Source: Sedimentisphaerales bacterium (GTDB lineage: Bacteria; Planctomycetota; Phycisphaerae; Sedimentisphaerales; Anaerobacaceae). Taken from it: DNA of 36,295 bases. The notes beneath the pieces were generated by a model that was given only the letters and a program-made list of their open reading frames with translations, did no database searches and had not been told where the DNA came from. The position numbers were made by a program, and so were the translations under genes. Numbering within the stretch: position 1 is the stretch's first letter; each line of letters begins with the position of its first letter. Location of the stretch: contig JAFGDN010000043.1 of assembly GCA_016932095.1 (NCBI GenBank), positions 1 through 36,295 on the forward strand, given 5' to 3'. This document shows, in pieces, positions 1-36,292 of the stretch.

Positions 1-45
1 ATTATGGTGAATGGGTGATAAATAAATGAGAGGAGAGGTTTGAAG

Positions 46-640
46 ATGTCATCATGCCTCACAATACCAATTCCCGACATCCTCGACAAATTCTGCGTCT
101 GGCCGCTGCTCGAATATCGCCGGCTGCAATTCGGCTGTCCATTCCGAAAAATCCCCCTCGGCGATGGCCTCTTCACAATCGTTGACCCCGACGTCTATTA
201 TCGGCTGAACAAATTCCAATGGTCTATCAGTGCAAAAGATGGCCTGATATATGCCGTCCGTTACGCCCTGACAAAATCGGGAAAAACCACAATAATCGGA
301 ATGCACCGCGAAATTATGAACGCCCCCAAAGGCCTCCTCGTTGACCATCAAAACAATAACACCCTCGACAATCTCACGCGAAACCTGCGCCTCGCAACCC
401 ATTGCGAAAACGCCTGCAACAGGCGAAAAACACGTTCAAAAACCTCGTCTCGATACAAAGGTGTTTACTTTTTGAAGCATTCGGGAAAATGGGCTGCACA
501 AATCTTTTATCAGGGCAGGTCAATCTGGCTTGGCCTTTTCGACACCGAAATTGAGGCCGCACGTGCTTACGACCGTGCCGCTCGTCAATATCATGGCCAA
601 TTCGCCAATCTGAACTTCCAGGTAAATCGAGGCGATAAAA
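46..640 (+). other. HNH-AP2 homing-endonuclease-like segment
   Basis: This is the N-terminal module of the long ORF. An HNH core is visible: HRE near residue 89, the DHQNNNTLDN stretch from D102-H103, then an Asn/Cys-rich stretch. An AP2-type DNA-binding domain follows (about 136-192, with YKGVYF, WLGLFDTEIEAARAYD and FANLNF). Free-standing proteins with this architecture are common selfish endonucleases and normally end soon after the final NLNF. Here no stop follows and the frame runs on into GH57. Whether it makes an active endonuclease is unknown. The domain call is firm; the idea of an invading gene is inference. Confidence 0.75.
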
Positions 641-3534
641 TAAACGCGTCAACGAGGCGGCGAAAACACTTTACGCCTCTTTGCGTATCCATTATAATCA
701 TCTCGGCGTTGACGGCGATAATCAGTTTCGCCGGTATTTTGTATGCTCCCTCGCCGAGGCCGGACTCGACTTTAATAGTAAAGGCAGGGTCGAAAATGCC
801 GTTAGTAACGTTTTACTTTCAGCTCCACCAGCCCCTCCGCCTCCATCTCAGCCAGGATAAATTTTTATGGGACCAAATGAACAAAGAGGTATTCGAAAAG
901 GTCTCGCAAAAATGCTATCTGCCGGCCACGAGATTGTTTACAGAACTTATTGCGAAAAATACCGGCTTCAAAATTACGCTCAGCATGTCCGGCACGTTCC
1001 TTGAACAGGCCACTATGTATAAGCCCGACGTAATCAAACGGCTGCAGGAACTTTTGGCCGTCGGGAAAAAAGCAAACCAGGTCGAATTCCTCGAAGAAAC
1101 GTATTACCACTCCCTTGCCGGCCTCTTTGGCGACCCTAACAGGCAGGAATTCCGTGACCAGGTCTCGCTGCATCAGGCCAAAATCGAGGAGCTTTTCGGC
1201 ATTAAACCGACCTCGTTTCGCAACACCGAGCTTATGTTCAATAATGAAATCGCCGACGTCGTCGCGGATATGGGATTCAAGTCGATTCTCTGCGAGAAAA
1301 GGAACGATATGTTCGGCCTTAAAAACGGAAAGCTCGTCTCGCCCAACGCCGTCTTTCGCGCAAAGGGAAATAATCTGATTGTCATTCCCAGAAACAGGGA
1401 GCTTTCAGACGACGTCGCGTTTAGATTCCCCCATACGCCGGTATCCGCGGAACATTACGCCTGGAGCATTGCCCAGATTGACGGCGAGGCGGCGCTGCTC
1501 GGCTACGATTTCGAACATCTCGGCGAGCATATCTGGGAAGACAAAGGTATTTTTGAATTCTGGCAAAAACTGCCCGTCGAAATGGCAAAACACAACAGCA
1601 TAAAAATGGCCAATCCCACCGAAATCGCCGAATTGTTCAAAGACGCCGAATGCCCAACAGCCGACATTCACGGTCTATCGACCTCATCCTGGGCCGACGC
1701 CACCCGCGACACCTTCGGCTGGCTGGGTAACAGAACCCAGCAGGAGCTTTTTGCCCGCATCCAGAACCTCGAAACCAGGGTCCGCAAAGCCGGCGGCGAA
1801 ATCCTCACGAAATGGCGTATTTTGACCACCTCAGACCACCTGTATTTTCTCCACGAAAGTTCCGGCTCAGACCACGCGGTGCACTCCTACTTCAGCCCTT
1901 ACGGCTCAATCGGCGAAACGGTCAGAACACTCACCGACAAAATCTGGTCGCTCGAAAACTCGGTGGAAACCTACTTTCACATCCTCAAAAAAACGGGCAG
2001 AGTGCCCGTTATCATAATCAGCCCCGAAACAGACCGGCTTCCAACCGAGGGAATGGGCGATTTCGCAAAATACGTGTCCGGTAAATCAGGCGGGATGGGC
2101 GAGGTGGTGGCTGCACTGTGCCGGGGCCTGGCCAAGAAGGACGTTTTGACCTATATCATAACGCTGAATCTCGAACGCAAATTTGTGGAATCATCAGGCA
2201 TCAGCCGGCACGATTACATCCAGAATTTATACCATTTGCCGCGAGATAAAATCAAAACGGTCGATTCCTCGCTTTTCGAGGATTATTCAAGCGCCTATGA
2301 CGGCGACCCGCGGGCCACGGCCGTTGAATTTCAAAGGCAGATTAAGCGATTCCTCATAGGGGATATAATCTCCAAACACGAAGGCAAGGGGATAATTCAC
2401 AGCCACGACTGGATGAGCGGCGGCATCATAACGGCCTTCGCAAAACTGATAAAAATACCCCTCCTGCACACGCTGCATAACAGTCATACGGGCCATATCC
2501 CATTAGATTACTATCAGGGCGTCAACCTGGGCGAGCTTTGGAACAACCTTTATTTCTCAAACGAATACGGCAGGGTCTGCGTTGACTGTCAGGCGACGGC
2601 GATTAAAAACGCGACGCTTGTCAATTACGTCGGAACAAGATTCCTCGAAGAAACGATACAGGATTATTTCATAGACAGATACTTCATACCGCCCAGCGTC
2701 CGGCAGGAAACGAAGGCAAAATACCGGTACGGCAGCGTTTTGGCGATACCCAACGGCATATCGCCTGGGATGTATCCTGAAAACCAGGTTGAAAATCCCA
2801 ATCTGGATGAGCCGGGATTAGCGAAAAAATACGGCGTAAATGATGACGTAATCGAAGCGAAAAGGCAGAATTTAATCAAATTCCAGCATAAAACCGGCCT
2901 GAAAGTCAACCCTGAAGCAATTTTGTTATACTGGCCATCGCGATTAGACAGGATGCAAAAGGGAATCGAATTGCTCGAAGATATCGCCTTGAGGTTCGTT
3001 ATCGAGCATCCCGACGTTCAAATCGCGGTTGTGGGAAATCCCGTCGGGTCGGACAGGACCGACGCGGAGATTTTAGGGAGAATCGCGTGCATATCGGGCG
3101 GGAAAATCGCATATTTGCCATTTAACGACGATTTGAGCATATTGGGCTACGCCGCGGCCAGCGACGTTTTCGGGGCTTCATTGTATGAGCCGTTCGGACA
3201 GATTGATTTGATTGGTAATCTTTTCGGCGCGACCGCGACCAACAGGGACACAGGCGGCTTTCACGATAAAATCAAGCCGCTGCAACTGAAAAAATCAGGT
3301 GCGGCAGAGGATACGGGAAACGGCGTGCTCTTCATAAATTACGACGCAGGGGGGCTATGGTATGGACTCGATACGGCAGTCAAAAACCACAGGTATTTCA
3401 GAAAAAATCCCGCTGAATGGGACAAGCAAGCAAAAAGAATTATGAAAGAGGCAAGGCAAAACTGGGGCTTCGACAATATGATAGCCGAATACCTCTCGGC
3501 GTATCAGAAGGTGCTGGGGTACCCGCTGATTTGA
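46..3534 (+). CDS. HNH-AP2 module joined in frame to GH57 / glycogen synthase-like (GT5) protein
   Basis: The 1,162-residue ORF has three parts (numbering from the TTG at 40). Residues about 35-195 are an HNH-AP2 endonuclease-like module. Residues 253-660 are glycoside hydrolase family 57: HQP near 263-265, a TEL motif whose E397 fits the GH57 nucleophile, and D490 in a YDFEHLGEH motif. Residues 660-1164 are a GT5 glycogen/starch synthase-like GT-B domain, with KSGGMGE at 682 for the nucleotide sugar, a HSHDW motif, and YEPFG at 1049-1053. The enzymatic part should act on cytoplasmic alpha-glucan. I prefer the ATG at 46 over the TTG at 40 because a GAGGAGAGG ribosome site lies 8 bases upstream. 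The enzyme may truly begin at the in-frame ATG at 796 (MPLVTFYFQ), since GH57 proteins usually begin this way. That would make the upstream part a separate gene whose stop has been lost. Confidence 0.8.
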   Translation: MSSCLTIPIPDILDKFCVWPLLEYRRLQFGCPFRKIPLGDGLFTIVDPDVYYRLNKFQWSISAKDGLIYAVRYALTKSGKTTIIGMHREIMNAPKGLLVDHQNNNTLDNLTRNLRLATHCENACNRRKTRSKTSSRYKGVYFLKHSGKWAAQIFYQGRSIWLGLFDTEIEAARAYDRAARQYHGQFANLNFQVNRGDKINASTRRRKHFTPLCVSIIIISALTAIISFAGILYAPSPRPDSTLIVKAGSKMPLVTFYFQLHQPLRLHLSQDKFLWDQMNKEVFEKVSQKCYLPATRLFTELIAKNTGFKITLSMSGTFLEQATMYKPDVIKRLQELLAVGKKANQVEFLEETYYHSLAGLFGDPNRQEFRDQVSLHQAKIEELFGIKPTSFRNTELMFNNEIADVVADMGFKSILCEKRNDMFGLKNGKLVSPNAVFRAKGNNLIVIPRNRELSDDVAFRFPHTPVSAEHYAWSIAQIDGEAALLGYDFEHLGEHIWEDKGIFEFWQKLPVEMAKHNSIKMANPTEIAELFKDAECPTADIHGLSTSSWADATRDTFGWLGNRTQQELFARIQNLETRVRKAGGEILTKWRILTTSDHLYFLHESSGSDHAVHSYFSPYGSIGETVRTLTDKIWSLENSVETYFHILKKTGRVPVIIISPETDRLPTEGMGDFAKYVSGKSGGMGEVVAALCRGLAKKDVLTYIITLNLERKFVESSGISRHDYIQNLYHLPRDKIKTVDSSLFEDYSSAYDGDPRATAVEFQRQIKRFLIGDIISKHEGKGIIHSHDWMSGGIITAFAKLIKIPLLHTLHNSHTGHIPLDYYQGVNLGELWNNLYFSNEYGRVCVDCQATAIKNATLVNYVGTRFLEETIQDYFIDRYFIPPSVRQETKAKYRYGSVLAIPNGISPGMYPENQVENPNLDEPGLAKKYGVNDDVIEAKRQNLIKFQHKTGLKVNPEAILLYWPSRLDRMQKGIELLEDIALRFVIEHPDVQIAVVGNPVGSDRTDAEILGRIACISGGKIAYLPFNDDLSILGYAAASDVFGASLYEPFGQIDLIGNLFGATATNRDTGGFHDKIKPLQLKKSGAAEDTGNGVLFINYDAGGLWYGLDTAVKNHRYFRKNPAEWDKQAKRIMKEARQNWGFDNMIAEYLSAYQKVLGYPLI

Positions 3535-30787: not shown

Positions 30788-32269
30788 TTGAACGAAGAAA
30801 TAATGCTGCTGATAAAGTCCAAGTACGCGGTCATATTTCTTGAGACCGTGGATGAGGAGTACGTCCTTAGCCAGCTTGCCCAGATTGCCAGGGAGTGGAA
30901 GTTTTCATATTTCGAGTGGTCGGTGACGGAGGGGCTTTGCAGGGACCACAAAGAGGGCAGCTACTATCAGACAAAAGAGCCGGGATTTATGCTTAGAACG
31001 ATACTTTCATTTCTCGGGCCGATACTGTCCTCCGGCGAACCAGGGCTTTTTGTGCTCAAGGACTTTGAACGTTATCTTGATGACGCGGTTGTGCTGCGGT
31101 TATTCAAGGATTTCGTCAATAAAATCAGAAATACGTGGCATACGGTGATTATTGTCGCCTCGACATACAAACTGCCGCAGGACCTTGAACCATACACCGC
31201 TTATATAATCGGCGGATACCCGGCTGAGGAGGAAATAAGTAATATCATAAGAGAAACCGTCAGCGAGCTTTACAGGAATAATCCGCAGATTAAAATTTCT
31301 CTGACCGCTGATGAAATTAAAAAGATTGCAAAGACGTTTAACGGCCTGTCGGTTCAGCAGATAAGAAACGTCCTGAGCGAGTGCGTCCTGGACGACAACA
31401 ATCTGGATATTAACGACCTGCCGAGGATTGAGAACTGCAAAAAGAAAATCTTCGACAGGGAGGGAGTGCTGGAGTTCTGTTTGTCCGAAAGCAGAGAAAA
31501 CATTGCCGATTTCGACAATCTAAAGAGATGGCTGGCGGAAAGAAAACACGCATTTCATATTGCCGCCGGACTGCCTCCGCCAAAGGGCGTTCTTATGATG
31601 GGCGTGCAGGGCTGCGGCAAGAGCTTGGCGATAAAGGTCGTGGCGAGGGAATTGAATCTGCCGCTGTATCGGCTGGATTTGACGAAACTTTACAGCAAAT
31701 ACATAGGCCAGACCGAAGAGAACCTGCGCAAAGCACTTAAAATCGTCGAGAAGCTGTCGCCGATGTGCCTGTGGATTGACGAAATTGAGAAATGCTTTGC
31801 CGCATCCGACGGCGAGATTGACGGCGGCGTTTCGCAGCGGATTTTGGGAACGTTTCTAACCTGGATGCAGGAACGACTGGGCGGCTGCTTTATGGCAGCT
31901 ACCGCCAACAACATATATATGCTTCCTCCTGAGTTTTTGCGAAAGGGCAGGTTCGACGAAATATTCTTCGTCGATTTGCCTAACGAGGAATTACGCAGTG
32001 GAATCTTCGCGATTCATCTGGCCAAACGGGGGCTTAAGCCCGAAGAGTTTGATTGCGGGCTTTTAGCGAAGGAATCCGCTGATTTCAACGGCGCCGAGAT
32101 TGAGCAGGCGGTAATATCGGCGCTTTATCGCGCGACAAGCAAGAAAGAACCGATTACGACCGAACACATTATCGAGCAGTTGCACTCTACTAAGCCGCTG
32201 GCAGTGGTAAAGCAGGAGGACGTCGCTATGCTCCGCAACTGGGCGAAGGACCGGACGATTTCGGCGTAA
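30788..32269 (+). CDS. Ycf46-like AAA ATPase
   Basis: The product has 493 residues as started at TTG 30788. The N-terminal half (to about 235) is an NTPase-like/helical region: SKYAVIFLETVDEEYVLSQL, GLFVLKDFERYL. A AAA core follows with Walker A GVQGCGKS (272-279), YSKYIGQTEENLRKAL, Walker B MCLWIDEIEK (D331, E332), the sensor-1 MAATANN and the arginine region LRKGRFDE. Ycf46 homologues occur in cyanobacteria and other phyla; a role in photosynthesis or carbon handling is reported in cyanobacteria, while elsewhere it is unknown. The start is uncertain: AAGGAGG (30765-30771) lies seven bases before an in-frame ATT (30779) and sixteen before the TTG. Confidence 0.85.
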   Translation: MNEEIMLLIKSKYAVIFLETVDEEYVLSQLAQIAREWKFSYFEWSVTEGLCRDHKEGSYYQTKEPGFMLRTILSFLGPILSSGEPGLFVLKDFERYLDDAVVLRLFKDFVNKIRNTWHTVIIVASTYKLPQDLEPYTAYIIGGYPAEEEISNIIRETVSELYRNNPQIKISLTADEIKKIAKTFNGLSVQQIRNVLSECVLDDNNLDINDLPRIENCKKKIFDREGVLEFCLSESRENIADFDNLKRWLAERKHAFHIAAGLPPPKGVLMMGVQGCGKSLAIKVVARELNLPLYRLDLTKLYSKYIGQTEENLRKALKIVEKLSPMCLWIDEIEKCFAASDGEIDGGVSQRILGTFLTWMQERLGGCFMAATANNIYMLPPEFLRKGRFDEIFFVDLPNEELRSGIFAIHLAKRGLKPEEFDCGLLAKESADFNGAEIEQAVISALYRATSKKEPITTEHIIEQLHSTKPLAVVKQEDVAMLRNWAKDRTISA

Positions 32270-32306: not shown

Positions 32307-32924
32307 CTACGGGACCTTTAGAAATACAGGTATATAACCGCCCTGCTGAAGCATTTCTATGAGGTGCAAAGCAATGAAAATCCATATAAACCACATCCCG
32401 TTGGCAAGATTCTTAAGGAAAACGTCGGCATTTATTTTGTTCTGGTCGTCTCTCTTATATAATGAGAATCTGGGCAAAAATCGCGGAGTGCGTCTCATAT
32501 AATCAAGATACGTCTGGCCGAACGTTTCCGTCATCTTTTTTTCTTCCGCGAGAATCGTTATAGGATAGTAAGCTATGTAAAAAATGACCAGCGCTGAAAG
32601 AACAAGAAGATTTTCCGACGCCAGGCCGATACCTATCGCGCCTATCAAGCTGAAAAGGTATAAAGGATTCCTCGTTATTGAATAGGGGCCTTCCGTGATA
32701 AGCTCTCGTCTTTTGTAACCGCCGATGTATAATAACGCCCATAACCGGCCGACGCTGCAAATTGTGAGCAGAAATAAGCCGGAGGTCTCAAATACTATAT
32801 CTATGACGCCGTTCTGACTAAAAGAGTGTGTAGAGAAAATCGCCAATAGCATTATAAAAATAGTCATTATTCTCGTCGCGGCTATACGAAAATCGGCGAT
32901 TCTGGTTATGATTTGTTTCCACAT
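32307..32924 (-). CDS. Isoprenylcysteine carboxyl methyltransferase (ICMT/Ste14)-like membrane methyltransferase
   Basis: The product has 205 residues with about five membrane helices. The conserved ICMT/PEMT signature is visible: ITEGPYSITRNPLYLFSLIG, EEKKMTETFGQTYLDYMRRT and PRFLPRF. The Arg-Asn-Pro-Leu-Tyr motif and the Glu-Glu pair form the SAM pocket in family structures. It resembles the C-terminal domain of the larger protein next door (HPLYLGNF, PRFKLW), so both probably act on similar lipids. It lies 55 bases downstream of that gene. The substrate is unknown. Confidence 0.8.
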   Translation of the reverse strand: MWKQIITRIADFRIAATRIMTIFIMLLAIFSTHSFSQNGVIDIVFETSGLFLLTICSVGRLWALLYIGGYKRRELITEGPYSITRNPLYLFSLIGAIGIGLASENLLVLSALVIFYIAYYPITILAEEKKMTETFGQTYLDYMRRTPRFLPRFSLYKRDDQNKINADVFLKNLANGMWFIWIFIALHLIEMLQQGGYIPVFLKVP

Positions 32925-32979
32925 TGTAAGTTTATTTTAGCTTTTAGTTCTCTTCCGGTTTTGTTTAAAAAGACAGAGT

Positions 32980-34515
32980 TTAGTTGTTACTGATTATTTG
33001 TAATTTCTTTAGAGTTCTTAGTGTTACAAAAACCAGCAAACCGGCACAAAATATCACAATCCACATCCAGTCAAGTTCCCACTTGCCTTCGTAAAATCTG
33101 TCGCCAAAAATCTCTATAGCGGTAAACGACGCTATTATAGCGAATAATCCCGGGTATTCGCGGGTCAAAACGGCCTGCCACAGGAAGGGCTGGGCGGACT
33201 TACGCCAGAGTTTGAACCTCGGCAAAATCATCGGCGTTTTTTGTGCCCATAGCGTAAAGTCAGCGCCGAATTTTTCTGCAAGAAAGGCCTCTTCAGTGAG
33301 GATTATCCGTTCATAGAATAAGAAAAATGCAAAGAAACAAAACACCGCCAGCAAGATGGAACGGGCGAATAAAACGATTCCCACCCATATTACGAAATTC
33401 CCGAGATAAAGAGGATGCCTGACGATGGAATACATTCCTGTAGTATTCAACTCCTGGGCTTTGGGTTCGCTTGTTGTTCTTCCAGAAGTTCTCTTTGGCA
33501 CATACCCGACGGTGTATATTCTTATCCCCAGGCCGACCAACGCGATTGCCAGGCAAAAAAGCTCCCACATCCGGTCAAGAAAGTGGCTGTCTTCAGGATA
33601 CGTGAAATACCTTAATTCTATGATGAAAAGCGGAACGATTATTAGAGGGAGAAAGCTTCTCCACCTGAAAAACCAGTCGCCTTGTTTTTTCATCTGGTTA
33701 ATATAGGCAATATTTGCCTGTTCACTTACGCCTTTTAACCTCATTCTCCATCTGATAACGAAAAGAGCCGTCGCTATGGGAACGTAAAATGTCAGTAGTA
33801 TGCTGAGCTTTTTGTGCCCTTCGAAAAACCAGATTAAAAGCGGAATGAGAAAAATTCCGAAAAAGGCGAGCGTTTGCTCATATCCGGCGAGAATGTTTTC
33901 GATTTTAGGATTTTTATTTCTTATTCTTATTGCCGCCCAGCCGCAAAAAATTCCCAACGCCATTCCTGCGAAAACGTCAGATGGGTAATGCGCTAAATCC
34001 AATACGCGCAAAATTCCGACTATGCAGCAGCAAATCACAATTCCAACTATTCCCGGCCAATGAGCAGATAATGCCAGGACCGTCCCCACGGCAAACACGC
34101 TGGCGGTATCACCTGAAGGAAACGACCAATTTTTGGCCGATTGGGCATTGTTTTCGACGTTCGCCTCCTTGTTTATCGCAACATTAGGTCGCGGCCTTCT
34201 GACTGCTGCCTTTATAGACCATACAGCGGGAATTGTAATAAGCATAGCAAGAAGACCAATCAAAACTGTTTTATGCTTTCCTGTAATCCACACCCAGAAC
34301 AAAAGCAGCCAGACAACCGCAAATACCTTGCCTAACTGCTCAAATGCCGTTTCAGCGATATTGTGATTGAACCTGACCGTATGGTGCCGCAGCCACGAAA
34401 AAACCGGCTCATCGAAGAAAAGGAAACAAACTACCATTGCGGCAATGAGTAGGCCGATGAACAAAAAGATTAACAGGCTGAAATAATTCCACCTGATATT
34501 CAAGTCGTTGCTCAT
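32980..34515 (-). CDS. PAP2 lipid phosphatase fused to ICMT-like methyltransferase
   Basis: The product has 511 residues. The N-terminal PAP2 domain carries the three phosphatase motifs: KAAVRRPRPN (about 104-113), SFPSGDTAS (131-139) and RVLDLAHYPSD (165-175). Membrane helices lie between. From about residue 290 a second membrane domain has ICMT/Ste14 motifs: SIVRHPLYLGNFV, TEEAFLAEKFG and PRFKLW, with two further helices at the end. The fusion joins dephosphorylation of a lipid phosphate with a methyl transfer, probably on an envelope lipid. The start overlaps the end of the GT83 gene by four bases. The two functions are firm as family calls; the joint pathway is inference. Confidence 0.85.
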   Translation of the reverse strand: MSNDLNIRWNYFSLLIFLFIGLLIAAMVVCFLFFDEPVFSWLRHHTVRFNHNIAETAFEQLGKVFAVVWLLLFWVWITGKHKTVLIGLLAMLITIPAVWSIKAAVRRPRPNVAINKEANVENNAQSAKNWSFPSGDTASVFAVGTVLALSAHWPGIVGIVICCCIVGILRVLDLAHYPSDVFAGMALGIFCGWAAIRIRNKNPKIENILAGYEQTLAFFGIFLIPLLIWFFEGHKKLSILLTFYVPIATALFVIRWRMRLKGVSEQANIAYINQMKKQGDWFFRWRSFLPLIIVPLFIIELRYFTYPEDSHFLDRMWELFCLAIALVGLGIRIYTVGYVPKRTSGRTTSEPKAQELNTTGMYSIVRHPLYLGNFVIWVGIVLFARSILLAVFCFFAFFLFYERIILTEEAFLAEKFGADFTLWAQKTPMILPRFKLWRKSAQPFLWQAVLTREYPGLFAIIASFTAIEIFGDRFYEGKWELDWMWIVIFCAGLLVFVTLRTLKKLQIISNN

Positions 34516-36191
34516 TTTGACGCCTGTTTTTTGCTTAATATTGCCGTAACCTCAAGCTTTTCTGCGCCCTTGGAATAATTTATTCCTTCTTTTGACACAA
34601 TTTCCTCGAAATCAACCTCGATTCGGTTGTGGCCGGATTTTTGCATTATACCATTCAAATCCTTTTTCGGTATTATCAGCACTCCTTCTGCAGTACCGTT
34701 AAGCCAGTCGACAACCTCATTTTCGTTTCTCAGCCGAGTAACCGTTCTTCCTATATAAAAATTCAGGGTCGGCTCGGCGAATTTATACGTCGCCACCGGC
34801 GCTTCTGTGCCTGTTTTTTCTCTGACCGCTTTTGCTATCGAGGGGCTTATTTTAATCTCCTCAACCGCGGGCAGAAAGCCAAATAACATCGGCGCAAGAA
34901 AAACCGCAATCCCAGCCAGGATAGTCCTTGCGCTGCTGACGAATTTTTCTCGAATCTGCAAAAATACGCAGGTCCCCGTCATTATAATTATGGCAAGCCC
35001 GCAAATTAATCCCGGCAATTTGAGCGATTCCACCTTTAGGGCATATCCGGCCAAAATCAGTCCCGACGCAAGCCCTAATCCTACGGGGAGCAAAAACCAC
35101 ACCCCTCCGCGAAGCCACTTTTTGTCCCGCTCACTCAAAATATCTTTTCCCGCCGCGATTGTCCCGCCGACCATTACCGCCATCGCGGGCCATGCAAAAA
35201 GAATATAATGAGGGAGCTTCGTCGCTGCCAAGGTCATTAGAATTACCGTTACCACAATCCAGCTTAATACTATATTTCGTGCCCCCGCAATACCGATTCT
35301 TTTTCCGATAATGGCTGAAAATGCCCCCGGAAGAAACGCCGTCCACGGGAAAAATCCTGCGATTATTATGGCGGAATAGTATGGTAAATATAAAATAAAA
35401 TTTCCACCGTGACTTTCCATTGGCCTGAGCGTCCTGGCGAGAATATGATGCCCGAGGAATACCCGGAAAAGCTCTCCGTCCATCTCTTTATTTGCGGGAA
35501 CAGCCCAGGCAAGAAAAATCCCGATGGCTATAATGACAGATAGCGCCAGACCGACGAGATTGACAACGAACTCAGCATAATTCCTTCTGCCAAACCACAG
35601 AACAACCACAATCACAAAAACGGGCAATAAGCCCGCCGGCCCTTTTGCCAGCATTCCAATCCCCATCAATAAACCAGCAACGAGAAAGTCGAAAGGACGA
35701 ATTCTTTCACCGATTCGCCCGACGAAAACCGCCATAGTCCCGACAATAAACGGCAAAAGCACGCCATCTACCAGTGCGGAACTGCCCACGAACATCATAA
35801 GCAGTGTTGTGGCTAAAATCGTCTCCGACCATAATCCTGCCTTTGCATTGAACAGTTTCTTTCCTATGAAAAACGTCAAAAGCAACGTAATCGTAGTGCC
35901 CATAACCCCAAAGAATCTACAGGCAATTTCGGTTGGTCCTAATAATCGCACCGGCAACGACATTAACCAGTAAAGCAGAATCGGCTTATCTGGCCAGGGT
36001 TGGCCGTTAAAGGTAGGAACCAAGTAATTGCCCGACTCAATCATTTCAACCGTAACTCTTGCGTATCTCGGCTCATCGCGGTCCCAAAGCGTGGAGCTTC
36101 CTGCTATAAGCAGGTATAAAATAGCGAACCCGGCGCTAATCAAAATCGCCTTTATCCACTGATAATCCAAGTTTTTGACCTTTTCTCGCAT
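34512..36191 (-). CDS. GT83 ArnT-like lipid glycosyltransferase
   Basis: The product has 559 residues and about twelve membrane helices. The ArnT/PMT-like first loop shows STLWDRDEPRYARVTVEMIESG with the catalytic Asp region, then FNGQPWPDKPILLYWL, GMLAKGPAGLLP, FFPWTAFLP and LPHYILFAWPAM. Such enzymes move a sugar from undecaprenyl phosphate to lipid A or another envelope acceptor in the periplasm. The C-terminal soluble domain (about 440-559) also follows ArnT. The start codon lies 17 bases behind tRNA-Leu with no ribosome site. It overlaps the PAP2-ICMT gene by ATGA, so the cassette is translationally coupled. The donor sugar cannot be told. Confidence 0.88.
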   Translation of the reverse strand: MREKVKNLDYQWIKAILISAGFAILYLLIAGSSTLWDRDEPRYARVTVEMIESGNYLVPTFNGQPWPDKPILLYWLMSLPVRLLGPTEIACRFFGVMGTTITLLLTFFIGKKLFNAKAGLWSETILATTLLMMFVGSSALVDGVLLPFIVGTMAVFVGRIGERIRPFDFLVAGLLMGIGMLAKGPAGLLPVFVIVVVLWFGRRNYAEFVVNLVGLALSVIIAIGIFLAWAVPANKEMDGELFRVFLGHHILARTLRPMESHGGNFILYLPYYSAIIIAGFFPWTAFLPGAFSAIIGKRIGIAGARNIVLSWIVVTVILMTLAATKLPHYILFAWPAMAVMVGGTIAAGKDILSERDKKWLRGGVWFLLPVGLGLASGLILAGYALKVESLKLPGLICGLAIIIMTGTCVFLQIREKFVSSARTILAGIAVFLAPMLFGFLPAVEEIKISPSIAKAVREKTGTEAPVATYKFAEPTLNFYIGRTVTRLRNENEVVDWLNGTAEGVLIIPKKDLNGIMQKSGHNRIEVDFEEIVSKEGINYSKGAEKLEVTAILSKKQASK

Positions 36192-36208: not shown

Positions 36209-36292
36209 TGCCGAAGGAGGGAATTGAACCCTCACCCTGTTGCCAGGACAGGATTTTGAATCCTGCGCGTCTGCCAGTTCCGCCACTTCGGC
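36209..36292 (-). tRNA. tRNA-Leu (anticodon CAA)
   Basis: On the minus strand the acceptor GCCGAAG pairs with CTTCGGC. The anticodon arm CAGGA-TTCAAAA-TCCTG gives anticodon CAA. A long variable arm (CCTGGCAACAGG) confirms a class II leucine tRNA. The T arm is GAGGG-TTCAATT-CCCTC. CCA is not encoded, and A is the discriminator. Confidence 0.95.

Follow-up and report, generated by a model that had tools for sequence, protein, structure and literature searches.

A predicted LpxE-type phosphatase fused to an LmtA-like methyltransferase, encoded behind a GT83 glycosyltransferase gene in a Sedimentisphaerales bacterium

The operon and its two-domain protein

The stretch of DNA analysed here, called the window, comprises positions 1-36295 (36,295 nucleotides) of contig C70 from a metagenome-assembled genome (MAG) of a Sedimentisphaerales bacterium; the MAG has 94 contigs and is 96.3% complete and 1.92% contaminated. 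Near the end of the window lies a minus-strand operon that encodes, in this order, a predicted polyprenyl-phosphate-sugar glycosyltransferase of the GT83 (ArnT/Rgt-like) type with 559 aa (34512-36191; PMT_2 in Pfam, E 1e-15), a 511-aa protein in which a PAP2 phosphatase is joined to an LmtA-type methyltransferase (32980-34515), and a short ICMT/PEMT-like methyltransferase of 205 aa, MT2 (32307-32924; PEMT in Pfam, E 6.7e-12). A check of the open reading frames (ORFs) of the window confirmed all three genes where a preliminary description of this DNA had placed them. That description had taken an ATGA overlap as a sign that the first two genes are coupled, and this holds: the ATGA at 34512-34515 is a 4-nt overlap between the end of the GT83 gene and the start of the fusion gene, and 13 of the 15 GT83-PAP2 pairs in the window and its relatives overlap by 1-11 nt, most of them by 4, the other two having short gaps. 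The observation is real and coherent and, as far as it can be tested, is not an artefact.

The phosphatase and the methyltransferase do share a single chain, as had been described, because the Pfam matches to PAP2 (E 4e-20) and to PEMT/ICMT (5e-10 and 1e-7) lie in one 511-aa frame. The PAP2 domain takes up about residues 1-250 (33766-34515, minus strand), as placed by its motifs, and the methyltransferase domain about residues 266-511 (32983-33720, minus strand), as placed by the LmtA model and the core residues. Both halves are full length, and the AlphaFold2 model of the protein shows two confident domains (mean pLDDT 89.4, pTM 0.65). The tripartite PAP2 motif is complete (K102-X6-R109-P110, P133-S-G-D136, R170-X5-H176-X3-D180), and among 12 relatives K102, R109, P110, PSGD, H176 and D180 are invariant and R170 is nearly so. 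Among solved structures the best sequence match of this half is LpxE of Aquifex aeolicus, a lipid A 1-phosphatase (Aq_1706, 6ebu; E 2.3e-13), which also ranks first in Foldseek. LpxE has the same PAP2 fold and the same KX6RP/PSGD/RX5HX3D motifs, and PSGD instead of PSGH is a substitution described for the Aquifex enzyme (PMC6581854). In the VIA structure comparison, in which the PAP2 half is covered by most rows and the ICMT half by fewer, LpxE aligns with Z 15.5 (3.2 Å over 157 residues) and is tied with the PGP (phosphatidylglycerophosphate) phosphatase YodM (5jki, Z 15.7). Taken together, these matches predict that the N-terminal half is an LpxE-type lipid phosphatase. Unlike the protein described here, which carries a methyltransferase at its C-terminus and has a GT83 gene in front of it, 6ebu is a single domain of 180 residues.

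The C-terminal half (METHYLTRANSFERASE half) matches the LmtA_Leptospira model TIGR04571 with E 7.5e-60 over nearly its whole length (positions 2-239 of 252). Since its score of 202.8 bits is under the curated cut-off of 325, we name it LmtA-like and not certified LmtA. It reaches 40.6 bits (E 2e-10) on the protein-S-isoprenylcysteine methyltransferase model NF040696, below the cut-off of 160, and it passes the gathering score of the ICMT family PF04140 (32.6 vs 24 bits). The ICMT core at the S-adenosylmethionine (SAM) site, R366-H-P-L-Y370 and E408-E409, is intact, and its residues vary little or not at all across 61 homologue rows, H367 being H or N. This RHPxY/EE core and the fold are shared with ICMT/Ste14 (4a2n, 5v7p; Z 9.7-11.2), the alignment with Z 11.2 having 2.8 Å over 142 residues. 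In sequence, the C-terminal half resembles LmtA much more than it does the ICMT models, and it is best regarded as a relative of Leptospira LmtA, from which it differs in its fusion to a phosphatase and in coming from another phylum. All in all, the 511-aa product is a genuine fusion of two domains, each with an intact active site.

The best solved match of the GT83 protein is ArnT, the lipid A aminoarabinose transferase (5ezm, E 1e-12), with similarity over the whole length. It scores 147 bits on the ArnT equivalog model NF009784, far from the cut-off of 567, and lacking equivalog status it is assigned to the GT83 type. MT2, which the preliminary description had recognised as a second ICMT-like methyltransferase at the end of the operon, has intact RNPLY and EE motifs; it scores 22.9 bits on PF04140, just under the gathering score of 24, and 56.2 bits on NF040696, below the cut-off of 160.

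Distribution of the modules and origin of the fusion

In the family to which the window belongs, the core that is conserved consists of a GT83 gene with a gene for an LpxE-like PAP2 behind it, and the methyltransferase is a variable add-on. Of the three functions that the preliminary description saw joined in one operon, glycosylation and dephosphorylation are thus kept together, while the LmtA-type methyltransferase is missing in relatives of the same genus: in G001 and G002 the order is GT83-PAP2-MT2, the LmtA domain being absent, and in G003 it is GT83-PAP2. In another genus (G017 and G353) the MT2 orthologue is immediately preceded by an LmtA-like gene, and neither genome yielded an LpxE-like PAP2. 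MT2 orthologues (58-66%) follow PAP2 in G001 and G002 and the LmtA-like gene in G017 and G353, and the window joins both modules, GT83-PAP2 and LmtA-like-MT2.

The PAP2-LmtA fusion is known from this one MAG. Searches of three overlapping genome sets, 294 from the phylum, 161 from the order and 89 from the family, gave no further one. A survey of fused PAP2-ICMT proteins, which had been suggested, did find a different fusion in genus g5 of the family, where the PAP2 encoded behind GT83 is joined to another ICMT-like enzyme (G355, L186:4684-6120, minus strand; and, truncated, G007, L056:3-1295, plus strand). The ICMT-like partner in this second fusion groups outside the LmtA-like clade. In the PAP2 tree each fused PAP2 is nearest to unfused PAP2s, and the methyltransferase tree separates the two fusions. 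Judging from these trees, the LmtA-type fusion and the g5 fusion probably arose separately. A single ancestral fusion event is disfavoured by both trees, although the approximately unbiased (AU) test of a single methyltransferase clade does not reject it (p 0.17). The unfused PAP2 of G001 ends in a tail, ADITYIDETKGKG (L052:9938-10000, minus strand), that resembles the linker of the fusion, a resemblance equalled in 1 of 2000 shuffles, and this hints that the tail may be a remnant of a lost LmtA domain; no linker-like PAP2 tail was found in G002 or G003 of the same genus. Another GT83-coupled LpxE-like PAP2, of 467 aa (L190:6998-8401, minus strand), is extended at its C-terminus by about 230 aa that match nothing in Pfam and form a further fusion partner.

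LmtA-like homologues were found in at least 560 places in GTDB species genomes, from which 80 loci in many phyla were kept. The ORFs at these loci are 201-302 aa long and therefore too short for an added PAP2 domain, and all of the 61 LmtA-like homologues tested match the LmtA model. LpxC was found in 44 of 50 genomes that bear such genes, including both MAGs labelled Bacillota, a count that is support and not proof, as no completeness is stated for the six genomes without LpxC. Standalone LmtA-like genes are thus widespread and common in bacteria that make lipopolysaccharide (LPS); cultured carriers include Chryseobacterium taichungense, Adhaeribacter aquaticus and Tepidiphilus margaritifer. 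Beside the 80 loci there are one EptA-type gene, a few GT83-like genes and otherwise mixed neighbours. The EptA-type (phosphoethanolamine transferase) gene lies directly after the LmtA-like gene in a Syntrophaceae MAG (L092:8754-10331, plus strand), and in other planctomycetes (L066:3489-12366, L069:7015-15842 and L111) three or four successive GT83-like genes have the LmtA-like gene among them.

A possible role in the modification of lipid A phosphates

The preliminary description had connected the operon with lipid A, and the LmtA match, the closeness of the PAP2 half to LpxE and the gene content of the genome all bear this out. A genome without lipid A and a fusion with both active sites dead would have spoken against it; here the catalytic motifs are present and so are the lpx genes whose presence the description had proposed to check, namely LpxC (2.8e-78) and LpxK (2e-80), together with the WaaA N-domain (3.5e-60). 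With these three present a bisphosphorylated 3-deoxy-D-manno-octulosonic acid (Kdo)-lipid A is expected, and the host should make Kdo-lipid A. Lipid A of Leptospira has a single phosphate, at position 1, which is methylated, and no 4'-phosphate; no other bacteria have been reported to carry a methylated phosphate on lipid A (PMC10248169). LmtA is the lipid A 1-phosphate O-methyltransferase of that genus, as cited in PMC10248169.

The explanation that we favour, with a probability of roughly 55%, is that the operon serves to remodel the phosphate ends of lipid A through methylation, dephosphorylation and glycosylation. Hydropathy and charge place the active-site loops of PAP2 on one side of the membrane and the loops with RHPLY and EE on the opposite side, so that the PAP2 active site would, by analogy with LpxE, face the periplasm and the methyltransferase loops the cytoplasm. 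SAM is cytosolic. We infer the substrates, phosphate positions, membrane sides and order of steps as follows. Drawing on SAM from the cytosol, the LmtA-like half would form a methyl ester on one phosphate of lipid A in the inner leaflet, the 1-phosphate if it acts as LmtA does, and the methylated lipid would then be flipped across the membrane. In the periplasm the LpxE-like half would strip an uncapped phosphate, either the 4'-phosphate or an unmethylated 1-phosphate, and GT83 would then transfer a sugar, carried by a polyprenyl-phosphate donor, onto the vacated position or onto a phosphate that is still there. MT2 may add a further methyl group. The product would be a less anionic lipid A, partly like that of Leptospira and partly like the products of LpxE and Rgt enzymes. 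The most specific form of this proposal is more doubtful than the general one. In it, one and the same membrane protein would block one phosphate of lipid A with a methyl ester at the cytoplasmic side and take off the other phosphate in the periplasm, GT83 would attach a sugar there, and standalone LmtA-like enzymes would make methylation of lipid A phosphate widespread.

The preliminary description had suggested an undescribed route, a reading that is supported in part. An LpxE-type phosphatase gene adjoining a gene for an Rgt (ArnT-like) transferase is already known from the lpxE-rgtF-rgtE cassette of Oligotropha, in which LpxE and galacturonosyl transferases swap a lipid A phosphate for a sugar (PMC7663294). 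That cassette has no methyltransferase, unlike the operon described here. What is new is the methyltransferase link, the route itself staying a prediction. In the open-licence literature we found no paper on PAP2 with isoprenylcysteine and lipid A. The interest lies in LmtA-type methylation being tied to LpxE-type dephosphorylation in one chain, since a natural fusion of this kind is a 'Rosetta stone' suggesting that both steps belong together. If the most specific form of the proposal is right, a modification described so far in Leptospira alone would turn out to be widespread in phyla that make LPS.

Several points weigh against an action on lipid A. Known LpxE and LmtA enzymes share the 1-phosphate, so that the two halves would compete unless position or substrate differs; this conflict would be resolved if an earlier methyl ester protects the phosphate or if the PAP2 half takes the 4' position. 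Neither the methyltransferase half (203 vs 325 bits) nor GT83 (147 vs 567 bits) is a certified equivalog of LmtA or ArnT, and the neighbour survey of the 80 named LmtA-like loci showed no recurring lipid A partner. LpxE enzymes also cleave undecaprenyl pyrophosphate (C55-PP) and PGP (PMC6581854), and therefore the PAP2 motif leaves the substrate unfixed. In addition, a search of this 96%-complete genome for BacA/UppP found none.

The last two points are also what supports an alternative in which the PAP2 half chiefly dephosphorylates C55-PP (or PGP) and so provides or recovers the carrier lipid of GT83, the acceptor being perhaps a glycan or a protein, and they keep open the polyprenyl phosphate acceptor that the preliminary description had allowed for. 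The tie with YodM among the nearest folds of this half is consistent with such a role. BacA/UppP is present in 22 of 61 family relatives, among which LpxC and LpxK are nearly universal, and many relatives are without both BacA and an LpxE-like PAP2, so that another enzyme must serve there. Contig C61 encodes a second PAP2, which has KX6RP and PSAH motifs of its own and relatives in many of those genomes, and therefore the fusion need not be the sole C55-PP phosphatase. As a carrier-lipid function also gives no reason for the LmtA-like partner, we consider it unlikely, if the strongest of the competing explanations.

It is quite improbable that a carboxylate instead of a phosphate, for example that of a uronic acid added by GT83 to lipid A, is the group esterified by the methyltransferase half or by MT2, in the way that ICMT acts on isoprenylcysteine. 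The ICMT fold and core of this half would suit such a reaction, and RgtD/RgtF-type GT83 enzymes add galacturonic acid (PMC7663294). However, the LmtA model fits the fused domain far better than the ICMT models do, and LmtA-like genes are mostly without GT83 neighbours. Moreover, GT83 products would be formed in the periplasm, away from the cytosolic SAM. We give equally little credence to the idea that two envelope enzymes with separate lipid substrates and no functional link were fused by chance. The occurrence of the LmtA-type fusion in one genome only, and the standalone state of LmtA-like genes elsewhere, are what a chance event would leave, but a PAP2-ICMT fusion is found again in another genus in the same place after GT83, each fused PAP2 has its nearest kin among unfused ones, and MT2 accompanies the PAP2 module and, elsewhere, the LmtA module. 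Editing of the lipid A phosphates stays our preferred explanation.

Surroundings of the operon

A tRNA search located a tRNA-Leu(CAA) gene directly upstream of the GT83 gene on the same strand (36209-36292), and the contig ends just past it; on the upstream side the context of the operon is limited to this tRNA. Promoter matches near the operon are no better than chance level. At the other end, an AAA ATPase gene (30788-32269, plus strand) is convergent with the operon. Far from the operon, at 40-3534 on the plus strand, the window encodes a protein of 1164 aa with GH57, starch-synthase-type glycosyltransferase and AP2 domains; the AP2 domain (E 3.5e-11) is unusual in a bacterial carbohydrate enzyme.

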